NCBI GenBank assembly: GCA_963931925.1
Contig: OZ007569.1
Coordinates: 30,707,091 to 30,771,090 of the forward strand
From: Onchidella celtica
Lineage: Eukaryota > Mollusca > Gastropoda > Systellommatophora > Onchidiidae
Length of the DNA stretch: 64,000 nucleotides
Direction of reading: 5' to 3'
Of the stretch, positions 3,038 through 11,524 are shown one piece after another. The notes under the pieces are model-generated. The model saw nothing but the letters and a program-made list of their open reading frames with translations, was not told where the DNA came from and did no database searches. Every line of letters starts with the position of its first letter. Position 1 is the first letter of the stretch. The position numbers and the translations under genes were made by a program.

Positions 3038-3324
3038 ATGTAATGACTTTGATTCTACAAGGCCAAAACTTAAAGTCGGAATTTATTAGAACTTTAGTGC
3101 AGCACGTGACATGATTTTCCCACTTTAGAATAGCATGGCACTTTTGTTGTTGTTGTTGTTGTTGTTTCCTGTTAAGAATGTACCAGTATTAATTTATTTG
3201 TCGTCATTTTGCAATGGAGCCTGATCTTGTTTGCAAATATTGCAGACCCACGAGTTGTTTTTTTTAAACATGGAAGTTGACTCAAAATTTTCCGAACGCT
3301 TACAGATTGTATTCAGAGGTCACG
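3038..3324. other. Spacer and possible 5' leader of the sulfatase
   Basis: AT-rich sequence with a short (TTG)n run near 3143-3166. A CTTACAG sequence ends at 3306, 18 bases before the sulfatase ATG, and could be the acceptor of a 5'-UTR intron. No promoter can be placed with confidence. Confidence 0.35.
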
Positions 3325-4902
3325 ATGTGGCTGTTGGTGGTTCTTCTGGGCATCCCCCAGTTGCTCGCTGGCCCCGCCTCCTGCCATGATACCAGCCAGC
3401 CAAACATTGTGTTTATAATGGCAGATGACCTGGGCTTCAACGACGTTGGCTACCACCAATCAGAAATAAGGACCCCAAACATTGATCAGATATCGGCTGA
3501 AGGTGTGCGGTTGGAGAATTATTATGTCCAACCAATTTGCTCACCGAGCCGGAGTCAGTTTATGTCTGGCCGCTACCAGATTCATACAGGTTTGCAGCAC
3601 GGTGTGATATTACCTACCCAACCCCTGGCCCTTCCCCTGGACTCGCCTACCCTGGCAGAGAAGCTCAAAGAAGTGGGTTATTCCACGTACGCCGTGGGGA
3701 AATGGCATCTTGGCTATTACAAGAGAAAGTACTTGCCAACAAGACGCGGTTTTGATAAGTTTTTTGGTTTCTACACGGGTAAGGTGGATTATTTCAAACA
3801 CAGGCGATGTCTTTTTGGACATTGTGCTGTAGATCTTCATAATGACACACCTGATGGTTTCACTAATGTATTCAACGAAACTGGCACTTATTCAACACAT
3901 CTTTATACAAACAAAGCAATTGATTGGATATCTGAACATGACACAAATAAACCGTTCTTTATGTATTTGGCTTATCAGGCTGTCCACGGTCCCCTCCAGG
4001 CTCCGAGTTTTTATAAAAAACAATACAAGTACATACCAGGCTTCAAGAGGAGATTTTTTGCTGCCATGACAACTGCAATGGACGAAGGGGTGGGAAAAGT
4101 GGTGGCTGCACTTAAAGACAAAGGTGTTTGGAACAATACAGTGCTGGTATTTTCTACCGACAATGGAGGTGAGCCAGGAAAGGGCGGATCCAATTATCCT
4201 TTACGAGGGCACAAAGGGCTGTGGTTGGAAGGCGGGGTCAGAGGTGTAGGGTTTGTAGCGAGCCCCCTGTTGCAGCAAACAGGTTACTCCAATCAAGGAC
4301 TTATGCACATATCGGATTGGTACCCCACGTTTATCCGCCTTGCCAATGGGAGTTTGAACGGTACTCGTGATATTGCAGGGATTGACCAATGGGACACAAT
4401 CAGCACAAATGTGTCATCTGAACGCCATATACTCCTCCATGGTATTGACCCCATCTCAATGACTGCCATTACTCCAAAAGGCAAGCGTAACAATATCTTT
4501 GACATCCGAATCAGTGCGGCTATTAGAATTGGAGACTATAAGCTAATCACTGGAACAGGGCCCAAAAAGACGAGAAAACGCCTGAAAGCAAGAATCCAGA
4601 AAAACAGAAATCGACAGCGAAGAATCTCCACAGCAAGGCCATTTAGAATGAGAAAACGTCAGAGGAATGGCAAATTCGCAAGACGTCGTTGGCCATCCTT
4701 CATACGCATGAGGTTGGTCAGACTCTATAACATCCGTAAGGATCCACGGGAGCAGAACGATCTGGCTAGACAGGAGGTGGCCAAGGTATATGACATGCTG
4801 CATAAACTGCGGGATTATTACAGGACCTCCGTACCGGCACTTGATCCGGCCCCAGAACGGGTGTGGCCAGTCAATGGCGCATGGGGCCCATGGAAAGATT
4901 GA
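3325..4902 (+). CDS. Arylsulfatase (ARSB/ARSI/ARSJ type), secreted or lysosomal
   Basis: A 525-residue sulfatase, close to the family length of about 530. The start is the ATG at 3325, which opens a signal peptide (MWLLVVLLGIPQLLAG). IMADDLGFNDVG supplies the paired metal-binding Asp (residues 34-35). CSPSRSQFMSGRY holds the C-x-P-S-R motif, whose Cys72 is converted to formylglycine in this family. GKWHLG (125-130), STDNGG (Asp279) and HKGLW (Lys297) give the remaining active-site residues. The end, NGAWGPW, resembles ARSI/ARSJ more than ARSB. Members remove sulfate esters, often from glycosaminoglycans; the substrate here is unknown. Residues 414-455 form an insertion with 22 Arg/Lys of 42. 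The whole frame is one exon without stops, and all key residues remain, so it looks functional. Confidence 0.93.
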   Translation: MWLLVVLLGIPQLLAGPASCHDTSQPNIVFIMADDLGFNDVGYHQSEIRTPNIDQISAEGVRLENYYVQPICSPSRSQFMSGRYQIHTGLQHGVILPTQPLALPLDSPTLAEKLKEVGYSTYAVGKWHLGYYKRKYLPTRRGFDKFFGFYTGKVDYFKHRRCLFGHCAVDLHNDTPDGFTNVFNETGTYSTHLYTNKAIDWISEHDTNKPFFMYLAYQAVHGPLQAPSFYKKQYKYIPGFKRRFFAAMTTAMDEGVGKVVAALKDKGVWNNTVLVFSTDNGGEPGKGGSNYPLRGHKGLWLEGGVRGVGFVASPLLQQTGYSNQGLMHISDWYPTFIRLANGSLNGTRDIAGIDQWDTISTNVSSERHILLHGIDPISMTAITPKGKRNNIFDIRISAAIRIGDYKLITGTGPKKTRKRLKARIQKNRNRQRRISTARPFRMRKRQRNGKFARRRWPSFIRMRLVRLYNIRKDPREQNDLARQEVAKVYDMLHKLRDYYRTSVPALDPAPERVWPVNGAWGPWKD

Positions 4903-6941: not shown

Positions 6942-7208
6942 CTATGTATGTATGTATGTATGTATGTATGTATGTATGTATGTATGTATGTATGTATGTA
7001 TGTATGTATGTATGTATGTATGTATGTATGTATGTATGTATGTATGTATGTATGTATTTATGTATGTATGTATGTATGTATGTATGTATGTATGTATGTA
7101 TGTATGTATGTATGTATGTGTGTATGTATGTATGTATGTATGTAGGCCTATGTATGTATGTATGTATGTATGTATGTATGTATGTATGTATGTATGTATG
7201 TATGTATG
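6942..7208 (+). repeat. (TATG)n microsatellite, about 267 bp
   Basis: Nearly perfect tetranucleotide array with a few single-base changes (TATT near 7056, TGTG near 7118) and one short break (GGCC) near 7144-7147. It abuts the 5' end of the first R2-type LINE copy at 7208/7209. Because of the 12-base translation period it is open in all frames, which produces artificial Met-Tyr-Val-Cys open frames. Confidence 0.97.
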
Positions 7209-8338
7209 CGAAACACCTAGCATTTTACCTGTCAGTATTGAACAGCGACGACCCACAGATTAGAGAAACAGCGAGAACATCACTAAAGTTGCACATGGAC
7301 AAACGCAAGGTTGTAAAGACGACTGATGAAACGTCTTTCGCGGGGTATAAAACAAATGAAAAAGGTATAATCAGGAAAGAGTCTAAAGTAAATTGGACGA
7401 AATCAACATGGGTACATTTGAACGAAATGTGTGCCAGAATAAACCTAAAGCTACATGACAGAAACAACAAATATGCCTTCGAACTTCACATAGATGAAGA
7501 GATATCAACTGTCATTGAAGATGCCACACGATTTTATGCGGGGTACAAAAAACTTCAGCTAAACGAAATCACCGAAAATTGGAAAGCCAAGAAATCTCAG
7601 GGACGTATTGTACGGGAGTCCCCCAATATCGACCACTCTCTCTCCAACTCATTCTGGACAAACCACAACATTCCGGACAAAATAAGAACTTTTATCACTA
7701 AGGGACGATTACAATTACTTCCATGTGAAAGCTTAATGAGTCTTTACTATCCTAATGTGTATTCCAAAAAATGTAAACTTTGTAACCATCCTACAGAAAC
7801 TGCCTCACATATTTTAAATCGATGCACAAAATTCAAGACCATGTATCAGAAGCGACACAACAGAATTGTTAACTTTATAACAAACAAAATTAAAGGAAAC
7901 AGCATCAACAATAAAATTGTCCTTATGGATACGCCACTCACACCAGCAATTTTTCAGTCTAGCAATACATCCTTCAACCACTCACAAAACAGACCGGATA
8001 TCACAGTCATAGACCCAGATAATAAGGCAGTAAAACTTGTTGAAATATCCATTCCATTCGATGCCTTCATTGACAGGTGCTATCAGTCGAAATTTGATAA
8101 ATACTATCCATTGTGCCTGGAAATTAATTCACTAGGATATCATTGTGAAATAATTCTTTTGATCTTTGGTTCATTAGGTCACGTCCACAAGAGAGTAAAA
8201 AGTGGACTATGTAAACTTGGTCTCAGTAAAATTGAAGCAAAATTTATAGCAAAATACTGCAGTGTTAGCAGTGGCATAGGCTCTTTTAACGTATGGAAGC
8301 TGAGAACAAGAAAGTACGACAGAGGTAGTTTAGCATAA
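7209..8338 (+). pseudogene. C-terminal part of an R2-type LINE protein (zinc knuckle plus restriction-like endonuclease)
   Basis: Open for about 375 codons to the TAA at 8336-8338. The knuckle CKLCNHPTETASHILNRC fits C-x2-C-x8-H-x4-C, the CCHC knuckle of R2/NeSL/R4-group proteins. About 65 residues later comes RPDITVIDPDNK, then VKLVEISIPFD, then KFDKYYPL, which is the PD...E...K arrangement of the restriction-like endonuclease that nicks the target. The RT domain is missing by truncation. Any start codon lies inside TATG repeats and is artificial. No internal stop or frameshift is seen, so the fragment is not old. Confidence 0.83.
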
Positions 8339-8513
8339 AGTGAAATAATATCGTATCAACTCTAATATTTTACCAGAGAAGAAGATTTGGAGAGCAAGAA
8401 TGAAAAGGACCATAGCATGTATTTCCGCTTCTGTACAATGTGAAGTATTGTTTTTCCAATAAGATATTGTACAGGTACATTTGACATGTATTTAATGGAA
8501 ATAAACAAATTTG
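7209..8513 (+). mobile_element. R2-type (RLE) LINE copy A, 5'-truncated, in (TATG)n
   Basis: The element starts at the end of the (TATG)n tract, already past the reverse transcriptase, and keeps the linker, zinc knuckle and endonuclease regions plus a 175-bp 3' UTR. The UTR contains AATAAA near 8500 and ends GATATGTATG, running directly into the next TATG tract. It is about half identical in protein to copy B downstream and lies in the same orientation. R2-superfamily elements with a C-terminal restriction-like endonuclease are generally site- or sequence-specific. Confidence 0.82.
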
Positions 8514-8522
8514 ATATGTATG

Positions 8523-8554
<32 letters not shown>

Positions 8555-8555
8555 T
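8514..8555 (+). repeat. (TATG)n between LINE copies A and B
   Basis: A 42-bp TATG tract (one TATA variant) joins the 3' end of copy A to the 5'-truncated start of copy B. It could be residual target sequence or the 3' tail of copy A. Confidence 0.9.
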
Positions 8556-8926
8556 TTTCTGTTTAAAGACAGCCATAAGTGACTTCTTACATTGTACCTC
8601 AAAAATATGCCTATGTTTTGTTGACATCAAAGACGCTTTTGGAAGTATCGACCACCAGACTATGTTCAATGAACTTAAACGATATGGCTACCCTGACTTA
8701 TATATTAATATAACTAAAGACATCTATAGTGAGTCTAGTTTTCAGGTTAAAACTGGCAAAGGGGTCACAGACAAAATTGTTCGGGAAAAGGGGATAATCC
8801 AAGGTTGCCCATGGTCTGTAACACTTTTTGAACAGGGGATTGACTGTTGGTTAAGATGGGTTGAACAAAGTTTCCCACCATATCAAGTACCTAACCCTAT
8901 TCAAGGCTATGTTGATGATGTAAGCG
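8556..8926 (+). pseudogene. RT domain fragment of LINE copy B, upstream of the insertion
   Basis: Contains RT motif A (CFVDIKDAFGSIDHQ), motif B (IIQGCPWSVTLFEQG) and motif C (GYVDDVSA) with its two catalytic Asp. The frame then runs into the 92-bp insertion and meets a stop at 8968-8970. Motif C is usually FADD or YADD in this group; YVDD is a tolerated variant. Confidence 0.82.
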
Positions 8927-9018
8927 CCCTTCCCCCAGGCAAACCCCATGTACGAGCACACAGCTATTAGAAAGCTGAATATCCATGATAAGGCTTTAAT
9001 GTTTCAAAACTTTAAGTG
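8927..9018. mobile_element. 92-bp insertion inside LINE copy B, identical to 22704-22795
   Basis: The 92 bases from CCCTTCCCCCAGGCAAACCC to CAAAACTTTAAGTG read identically at 22704-22795, 13.8 kb away, while the flanks differ. The two halves of the copy B frame lie in different phases, and 92 leaves a remainder of 2 on division by 3. Removing the segment brings both halves into one phase, so this is an insertion and not part of the LINE. I see no target-site duplication; one G is shared at the junction. Confidence 0.8.
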
Positions 9019-10691
9019 CAAACATCAACGATATGAATATAATGACAAATAAGACCAGTACTTTTTTGAACACCACTGGTATGGATGTTAAGCCACGAAA
9101 GTGTGCCGTTACATTTGGACAGCGCACGGGAAATAACTGGGCAAACAGCAAAACAAATGCTGATGTTAAAGTGCAAGATCAGAGCATTCCTGTTTTGACA
9201 AAAGAAAATAGCTATAAATATTTGGGTCATGACATTAATATCCAAAACACCAGTGGGATTTCCCAGGTATGCTCTGTGATAGCCGAATTCAAAACAAACA
9301 TGACAAGAATCAGTCTTGCCCCATTGCCATCATCTGCTAAACTCCAACTATTGAGCCCCATGTGTATTAGCCCTGTGCTATTCTACTTTTCTAATTTAAT
9401 CTTTACTGAAAAACACCTAAAGGAGATCGAAGATGAAATTGTAAACAATGTTAGAACATGGCTGGGTCTAAATGAATCTACATCTAGAAATTTCTTTTTC
9501 AGTCCACGAGCCCAAGGGGGTCTCGGAGTTCCTAATCCTGCCATTTTATACCACGCTAAACACCTTGCCTTTCACCTAGAAATGTTGAATAATGATGATG
9601 TTTTAGTCAAAAATGCTGCGACCCAGTCACTTGATTTGCATATGACTAAAAGAAAAGTGTCAAAAGTAGAGAGTGATGGAGAAAATATAAATTTTGCAGG
9701 ATATGAACTAAAAGAAAATGGTCAACTTAATAAGAAAAGCAAGGTCAACTGGTCAAAATCAAATTGGGTCAACCTCCAGGAGGTGTGTGCCAGAGAAAAA
9801 ATTGAACTACAGGAATCTAACAATATCTTTAAATACAATGTCGAGGTTGATGATGATGTTCATTTTTCTCTTCATGATCATGTGAAATTTCAAAAATGTT
9901 ATAAAAATGTGAAACTAAATAATGTTGTTGAAGAACTGAAAAGTTTGAAATCACAAGGAAGAATAATTAGAGAAAATGGGAACAACATTGATTACACTGT
10001 ATCTTGTAACTTTTTAACCAACCACAAAATAAGTGATAAAGTACGAACGTTTTGTGTGAAAGGGAGGATGCAAGTGCTTGAATGTGAGAGTCTTTTGCAC
10101 ACATACTATCCAAACAGTTATTCAAAAACATGTAAACTCTGTAATTTCTATGCTGAGACAGTATCCCATGTTTTGAATGGATGTAAAAAACTGAAGCCGC
10201 TTTACCAGCAAAGACACAACAAAGTTGTCAATAAGATCTTTGAGAAAGTAAGTGATGTGTACAAAAGGAACACGCATGTCTCATTGAAAAAAGACACACC
10301 TTTAAGGCCAGCTCATTTTGATAACACCCAAGAAAATTTTGACACCAATGCCAACAGGCCTGATATTACAATTATTGATCGTGAACACAAAAGAGTATGG
10401 CTTGTAGAGGTTGCAGTCTGTTTTGATGCCCATATTGAGAACTGCTACCAAAATAAATTTAATAAATATTTCCCCCTCAGTATGGAGATAAACAAAATGG
10501 GCTTTAACACCCGTGTAATTGTTTTGATTGTTGGCAGTCTGGGCCACATTCATAACAAATTTTCTAAAGGATTGTTCCAACTAAATATCAGAAAATATGA
10601 AATCAGGGGTCTCTGCAAATACTTAAGCAATAGTGCAATATTCTCATCCCATCACATATGGAAACGCCGTTGTAAATCCCATCCTCTATAA
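9019..10691 (+). pseudogene. C-terminal part of LINE copy B (RT thumb, zinc knuckle, restriction-like endonuclease)
   Basis: Open for about 555 codons to the TAA at 10689-10691. It starts in the region just after RT motif C and has the typical GMDVKPRKCAVTF and YLGHDI segments. HAKHLAFHLEML matches the start of copy A. CKLCNFYAETVSHVLNGC is the C-x2-C-x8-H-x4-C knuckle. RPDITIIDREHK, WLVEVAVCFD and NKFNKYFPL form the PD...E...K endonuclease. The apparent ATG at 9033 is only the first Met after the insertion. Confidence 0.85.
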
Positions 10692-10869
10692 TCTATGTAC
10701 TGTGTCATTATCCTTTTATATCATTATTTCAATATTCTTCATGAGTCTTGTTTCCTGTTTACTTGCATCCAGCATGCTACCATCCATTTTGATGTATTTC
10801 TCATCATCATTTTTCTATGATGTTACATTACTTGTAATGTATTATAGAGAAATAAAGATATAGATATTG

Positions 10870-10870
<1 letters not shown>

Positions 10871-10900
<30 letters not shown>

Positions 10901-10922
10901 TGTATGTATATATGTATATATG

Positions 10923-10956
<34 letters not shown>

Positions 10957-10958
10957 TG

Positions 10959-11003
<45 letters not shown>
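10871..11003 (+). repeat. Compound (TATG)n(TATC)n array after LINE copy B
   Basis: TATG repeats with TATATG variants (10871-10958) change cleanly to TATC repeats (10959-11003). The TATG part follows the 3' end of LINE copy B, and the TATC part is followed by the SINE. Confidence 0.95.
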
Positions 11004-11004
<1 letters not shown>

Positions 11005-11008
11005 CCGG

Positions 11009-11524
11009 GGGACAAGGTGGTCTAGAGGCAAGGTGCTCGCCTCTCATGCCAAGGGGTCCCGGGTTCTAAACCCGGGCAGTGCAGGCATGTTGGAAAGTGG
11101 ATTTTTCTCGTATTTTCAAGTCCCTGGTCCTATTGGGGGGTAGGATCGAGTAGTTCTTGGAAATTGGATTTTTCTCATATTTTCAAGTCCCTGGTCCTAT
11201 TGGGGGGTAGGATCGAGTACCTAGTCTTCTCGGATAAGGACGAAAAAATTCGGAGGGCCCGTGTGCACGTTGCGCACGTTAAAGATACCTTGGCAGTTGG
11301 AAATCGTAAAGAGCAGGCCGAAAGGCCGCTGCCCGGGCAAAATTGAAATTAACAGATTAAAATTCATCCATATCATCCCCCCCCCCCCCCCCCGCCAGAA
11401 CAAGAAATAATAAAACAAGTAAAGTGAGGTGTAAATGCCAAGGGCAGCGAACCTCCTAAAATAAAGACCTCAAATAAAAAAAATAAATAAAAAAATAATC
11501 TATCTATCTATCTATCTATATATT
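11009..11524 (+). mobile_element. tRNA-derived SINE with an internal 67-bp duplication
   Basis: The head carries RNA polymerase III promoter boxes: A box TGGTCTAGAGGC (11018-11029) and B box GGTTCTAAACC (11062-11072), the latter inside a perfect T-arm stem (CCGGG/CCCGG). The body holds two 67-bp units in tandem (11090-11156 and 11157-11223, sharing TTTTCAAGTCCCTGGTCC). Next come a C-run at 11379-11393 and an A-rich tail to about 11498. The element is bracketed by a perfect 14-bp direct repeat TATCTATCTACCGG at 10995-11008 and 11525-11538. That is a convincing target-site duplication inside a (TATC)n target. Confidence 0.8.

Follow-up and report, generated by a model that had tools for sequence, protein, structure and literature searches.

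R2-group retrotransposons of Onchidella celtica that appear to share (TATG)n microsatellites as their preferred target

Dong belongs to the R4 clade of long interspersed elements (LINEs), and a HERO family from a leech, reportedly recorded in Repbase Reports 2014, is said to have a microsatellite target. As presented in the relevant passages of published accounts, Dong is an R2-group LINE residing in (TAA)n (PMC2887409), DongAg and DongBg insert into microsatellites (PMC3636483), HERO is a clade with a restriction-like endonuclease (RLE) in which some families are microsatellite-specific, and Togen, from fish, is a (TG)n-specific LINE placed between HERO and NeSL without resolution (PMC4640811, for both). 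These publications on DongAg/DongBg, HERO and Togen do not bear out the view that RLE elements dedicated to a microsatellite are undescribed; a preliminary description of the locus presented here had taken an RLE family dedicated to (TATG)n not to be a standard described case. The locus lies in a stretch of 64,000 nucleotides from the gastropod Onchidella celtica (contig OZ007569.1, positions 30,707,091–30,771,090, forward strand; the whole stretch is hereafter called the window) and contains two LINE copies embedded in (TATG)n. From the comparison of sequences we consider it very probable (roughly 0.88) that these are R2-group non-long terminal repeat (non-LTR) retrotransposons with (TATG)n as their preferred target and some insertion into related repeats that are TG-rich or contain TGTAT. 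The preferred landing repeat, TATGTATG, is common to at least three families whose proteins are about half identical, and a fourth and more divergent one, family X, probably uses it as well.

The two window copies are arranged head to tail on the plus strand, within one interrupted (TATG)n array whose segments were delimited with Tandem Repeats Finder. The first segment (6943..7208; 66 copies, 96% matches) is the 5′ flank of copy 1, a 5′-truncated R2-group LINE of family 1 (7209..8516; identified from its open reading frame (ORF), zf-RVT and an R2 PDB chain) that retains the C-terminal 375 aa, including the CCHC knuckle (CKLCNHPTETASHILNRC) and the RLE motifs, with the nuclease core RPDITVID...KLVEIS, and whose 3′ untranslated region (UTR) ends in ...AAATAAACAAATTTGATA. 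The following segment (8515..8555) is both the 3′ flank of copy 1 and the 5′ flank of copy 2, a 5′-truncated R2-group LINE of family 2 that starts inside the reverse transcriptase (RT) region (8556..10872; from ORFs, Pfam and an R2 PDB chain) and ends in ...AAATAAAGATATAGATATTGATA. A 563-aa open frame in copy 2 (9000..10691) comprises the end of the RT region, the CCHC knuckle (CKLCNFYAETVSHVLNGC) and the PD..E..K core of the RLE (RPDITIID...WLVEVA); the 3′ flank of this copy is a (TATG)n and then (ATCT)n array (10871..11001). The 3′ junction is common to both copies, reading ...TTTGATA/TGTATG in copy 1 and ...ATTGATA/TGTATG in copy 2 (the slash marks the junction). Both copies are incomplete: copy 1 is devoid of RT, copy 2 begins within it, and the frame of copy 2 is disrupted by about 83 additional bases near 8925–9010. 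Because of the 5′ truncation of both and of this frame break, the two window copies look dead; a relative whose frame is intact shares 98.9% DNA identity with copy 2.

The proteins of the two copies are 47% identical over 375 aa (BLASTP, E 1e-124). Tandem runs do exist elsewhere in the genome, such as seven family-3 matches of 100% identity on contig C5, and a segmental or tandem duplication could in principle have produced the window pair; however, the degree of protein identity, the different element start points and the existence elsewhere of relatives 99% identical to copy 2 leave this origin with practically no probability, and we exclude it. Thus, the preliminary description was right about the structure of the locus, in that it reported two head-to-tail R2-type copies with a CCHC knuckle and a PD..E core (seen in both ORFs), placed in TATG repeats with a common 3′ junction (there are arrays on each side, and ...GATA/TGTATG in both), with proteins about half identical, and attributed them to separate insertions by different families and not to a tandem duplication.

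Genome searches returned at least 78 matches for copy 2 (family 2), which are 94–100% identical and include some with a 1108-aa open frame; at least 109 for copy 1, of which 59 are at 66% identity or more (family 1) and the remainder at about 54%; and at least 70 for the third family, some at 96–100% and some at 53–56%, the latter being named family 5. All these counts are lower bounds, in which one copy in two pieces may count twice. The family to which copy 2 belongs is young, as its matches of 94–100% identity show. Family X, found in locus L061 (G000:C12:33810800-33812000; L numbers designate individual loci), is a further R2-group family that is 39–42% identical to families 1–3 in the RLE.

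The preliminary description had proposed to record the flanks of the genomic copies, and these reveal a genome-wide (TATG)n preference in families 1–3. Exact 3′ ends are followed by TGTATG in 87 of 108 cases for family 2, and by ATGTATG in 38 of 51 cases for family 3. Eighteen of the 21 family-2 misses were read among the matches listed, and 16 of these lie in TATG, TG, TATC, TGGA or related repeats, that of L097 being a degenerate one. Likewise, seven of the 13 family-3 misses correspond to a single tandem run on contig C5, where a single junction was read and proved to be (TG)n, and five of the remaining six are in a TATG-type repeat (L006, L112–L115), L116 not being so. We also scored 70 copies on both sides with a single rule, counting the readable flanks. 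The 3′ flank was TATG/TG-like in 27/29 copies of family 2, 19/21 of family 1 and 10/10 of family 3, and the 5′ flank was of TATG/TG type in 42/58 (18/25, 17/25 and 7/8, respectively), against a background, measured in the window beyond the elements, of 0.92% (12 bp) and 0.26% (40-bp windows in which TATG/TG repeat makes up half or more). Inspection by eye showed that L005 and L021, despite failing the 5′ rule, end in TATG units, and that L003 passes it but sits in a TGTATG-containing minisatellite. Additionally, a TATG-type repeat precedes 13 of the 15 exact full-length 5′ ends of family 2, the exceptions being L064 and L106.

The families also cluster with each other: different families occur within 6 kb of one another in 21 pairs vs. 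0.15 expected for random places, in a count that used match starts, assumed uniform places and left out four rows of the third-family search (two family-1 places already listed and two second pieces). Family X has 330 exact 3′ ends genome-wide, and in the loci examined 15 of 15 ends are followed by TATG-type sequence (only TATGTAT in L035), a sample that is biased in that these loci were found as neighbours of other elements.

The adjacency of the element ends to TATG could also arise if the repeat were a product of the elements. According to such a tail hypothesis, element RNA with a 3′ TATG would seed the downstream microsatellite, and the 5′ arrays would be the tails of earlier neighbours; indeed, simple sequence repeats (SSRs) borne by the 3′ UTR were proposed for RTE elements of Lepidoptera, in a passage that contrasts them with SSR-targeting elements (PMC2887409). 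Besides the fact that the families end adjoining TATG, this would agree with the 5′ arrays preceded by another family's 3′ end in L006, L022, L061, L101, L104 and in the duplication of L023 (see below). However, no family end of the AATAAA...TATG type was seen in the upstream stretch examined for L010, L063 and L105, each of which has a 5′ array; the type of 3′ array varies (TG, TATC, TGGA), and in L045 the 3′ end is followed by TGTG only. Moreover, TATG is also present 5′ of copies truncated at differing points, and the array occurs on both sides of the junction in four cases with a target-site duplication: it extends to the left of the duplicated stretch in L007, L015 and L070, and does so for only ~9 bp in L023, where another family's 3′ end precedes it. 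The 5′ TATG at different truncations, the TGTG of L045 and the array to the left of the four duplications therefore lead us to reject that TATG is only the tail of the element, an outcome already contemplated in the preliminary description, and make the seeding of the arrays by element RNA improbable. These data point to an array that pre-existed and was cut inside, although the array in L023 may be the flank of an older element. Separately, the idea that TATG is part of the 5′ end of the element was dropped, with L100, L101 and L104 having no ATG before GCAAG; in L064, the junction contains three extra bases (ATG).

Thirteen copies have a non-repeat 5′ flank, and in four of them this flank repeats the sequence starting at the 3′ junction. 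The duplications are of 116–117 bp in L007 (100% identity), 164–165 bp in L070/L071, from family 3 (99%), 181 bp in L023 (99%) and about 253 bp in L015/L064 (97%). When the 60 bp of 5′ flank next to the element were compared, the longest exact match was of 40–60 bp with the copy's own 3′ flank vs. 0–14 bp with the 3′ flanks of the other loci in this test; for L027, which is in a mixed TATG/TATC repeat, the values were 58 bp (own) and 41 bp (others), and this case is only suggestive. Two other direct repeats, of 418 bp around L011 and of 145 bp around L068/L069, look like copies of family X and were not accepted as duplications.

Assignment to the R2 group derives from the architecture and motifs of the elements. 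A relative on contig C12 is a 3.55-kb element with a single 1108-aa frame, in which Pfam identified RVT_1 (E 9.2e-28) and a sub-threshold zf-RVT; with E values of up to 1 these were the only domains retrieved, with no N-terminal domain, including an apurinic/apyrimidinic endonuclease (APE), in this frame. In copy 2, the N-terminal piece also matched RVT_1 (E 8.8e-12); zf-RVT was below the cut-off in both copy 1 (E 2.1e-4) and copy 2. The best solved relatives of the 1108-aa protein are R2 proteins (9nl3, E 8.3e-39; 9dou, E 1.5e-38; 9nl2, E 3.4e-34), followed by LINE-1 ORF2 (E 2.6e-20) and the RT-like protein 8gh6 (E 1.6e-13). Residues 232–747 of the family-2 protein align to 9nl3, and its CCHC-RLE part does so weakly (E 0.019), as does the CCHC-RLE region of copy 1 (E 4.3e-4); the 563-aa frame of copy 2 matches 9nl2 with an E value of 8.9e-14. 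The columns of the CCHC knuckle and of the PD..E core are invariant in an alignment of the three families, and the 3′ ends of the elements contain AATAAA and continue directly into the repeat, without poly(A). The architecture and the motifs place the elements within the R2 group, with a predicted RLE fold.

R2 proteins also possess an N-terminal Myb domain. N-terminal zinc finger(s) are part of their description in PMC5035012. Neither a zinc finger nor a Myb domain was found by Pfam (E up to 1) at the N-terminus of one family-2 protein; a diverged finger could escape this search. An Rfam search of six loci did not identify an HDV-like (hepatitis delta virus-like) ribozyme, its eight matches with E up to 1 all being below the gathering scores. 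No relatives were confirmed in viral contigs, searched with a single protein and an alignment, or in a collection of genome contigs, searched with a single protein.

Regarding the 5′ region, AAGATGGCGG is found very close to the 5′ end, only a few bases away, in full-length elements of family 2 (L061–L064, L099–L108) and of family 3 (L065 and 8/10 of the 5′ pieces from L066–L084). This motif could be start-codon context or a candidate YY1-like promoter motif. The four family-2 copies read in L061–L064 have an in-frame TAG at element bases 51–53, between the first ATG and the remaining frame, and the family-3 copy in L065 has an open frame at this position. Locus L065 (G000:C5:55863300-55870400) belongs with the C5 run, in which the seven family-3 matches of 100% identity are arranged head to tail (G000:C5:55865418-55888702) with a spacing of 3547–3559 bp; the only junction of the run that was read lies in (TG)n, and the alternation of 3557 and 3559 bp in the spacing points to the amplification of a two-copy unit.

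Several points weigh against (TATG)n as the target of an R2-group element, or limit what can be drawn from the duplications. Copies in unrelated sequence, to which the preliminary description had drawn attention, are few but do exist, since two of the 18 family-2 misses read (L092 and L094) have no array at the 3′ side. Specificity is also not absolute in the other families, with L045 (family 1) and L116 (family 3) being without a 3′ array and L003 residing in a minisatellite. The copies scored for their flanks were the best-scoring candidates from the genome search and not a random sample. In nine of the 13 copies whose 5′ flank is not a repeat, the ~0.8–1.3 kb of 3′ flank examined revealed no duplication; later insertions by other transposable elements may explain some of these nine, and by eye L014 and L047 end at a common sequence. 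Pure arrays hide the length of a duplication, so the four measurable cases may be atypical. Finally, the AlphaFold2 model obtained from a seven-row alignment had a mean predicted local distance difference test score (pLDDT) of 40.6, too poor for use.

The 3′ junction is ...GAT(A)/TGTATG in most copies and, by analogy with target-primed insertion as known for R2, the bottom strand would be nicked first, within the array, with a CATA-type 3′ end priming the reverse transcription of the element RNA. Judging from the four copies with duplications, the top strand would be cut 116 to about 253 bp downstream, with no evident sequence rule, and the array would be kept and copied at most insertions. 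If so, insertion would not consume the target, and different families could accumulate one behind the other in the same orientation, as seen in the window. We tentatively contemplate the possibility that the target is self-renewing: a guild of divergent R2-group elements would exploit one microsatellite, a second cut 100–250 bp away would copy the array with each insertion, the number of targets would grow with that of the elements, and the elements would be a main maker of the long TATG arrays in the genome. Rather unlikely, in our opinion, is a weak endonuclease preference combined with microhomology, by which loose nicking would expose a CATA primer able to pair with the end of the RNA, and any TG-rich repeat would suffice. 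Insertions in (TG)n, (TATC)n, (TGGA)n and in a minisatellite containing TGTATG are what would be expected from it, yet most copies have a TATG-type array at the junction in spite of an estimate of ~1,300 such arrays of at least 24 bp in 1.14 Gb. This estimate is based on 332 ends in one of the four phases, times four, with interrupted arrays being counted repeatedly, and its backward control (291) corresponds to another phase of this very repeat.

Other features surround the pair. Between two (ATCT)n arrays, at positions 11004–11480 of the window, lies a repeat unit that includes two internal copies of 63 bp, 96.8% identical to each other; by eye it looks like a short interspersed element (SINE) in a microsatellite, and ARAGORN found no tRNA there. 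Pfam also identified a LINE-type reverse transcriptase frame (1478–2872; RVT_1, E 4.5e-32) and a 544-aa sulfatase-like frame (3268–4899; PF00884, E 7.9e-57).

As reasoned in PMC2887409, LINEs that insert into simple repeats already present do not make such repeats more numerous; if true, the 100–250 bp stagger would reverse this reasoning, because each insertion would copy its own target. Likewise, the second-strand half of the reaction of RLE LINEs is called very poorly understood in PMC6895275, and the top-strand site of R2 is described as not strictly determined in PMC5035012; the system presented here offers natural second-strand positions for an RLE LINE. It also supplies a young set of RLE proteins with a short repeat target, useful for comparing how target choice is encoded. 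Our literature search found no paper on a (TATG)n target, and an earlier record in Kojima and Fujiwara 2004 or in Repbase Reports is possible. As far as we have seen, what is new is a tetranucleotide target common to divergent families, together with long and variable duplications.

Compared by description with the accounts cited, Dong is likewise an R2-group LINE in a microsatellite, although its repeat is (TAA)n instead of (TATG)n, and the duplication of 13 bp given for R4 (PMC6895275) contrasts with those of 116 to about 253 bp found here. HERO shares with the present elements the RLE and, in some of its families, microsatellite specificity, also by description. Togen is directed to (TG)n, whereas the main target here is TATG, with (TG)n appearing at the family-3 run and at some family-2 3′ ends. 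Solved R2 proteins (9nl3, 9dou and 9nl2) are the best structural relatives, but the flanks that we inspected are mostly microsatellites and not the 28S ribosomal DNA (rDNA) in which R2 proper inserts. The closest parallel in duplication length is R9, an RLE LINE from rotifer rDNA for which PMC6895275 gives a target-site duplication of 126 bp: the duplications are long in both systems, with one figure at rDNA for R9 and variable lengths of 116, 164, 181 and about 253 bp at a microsatellite for the elements of O. celtica.

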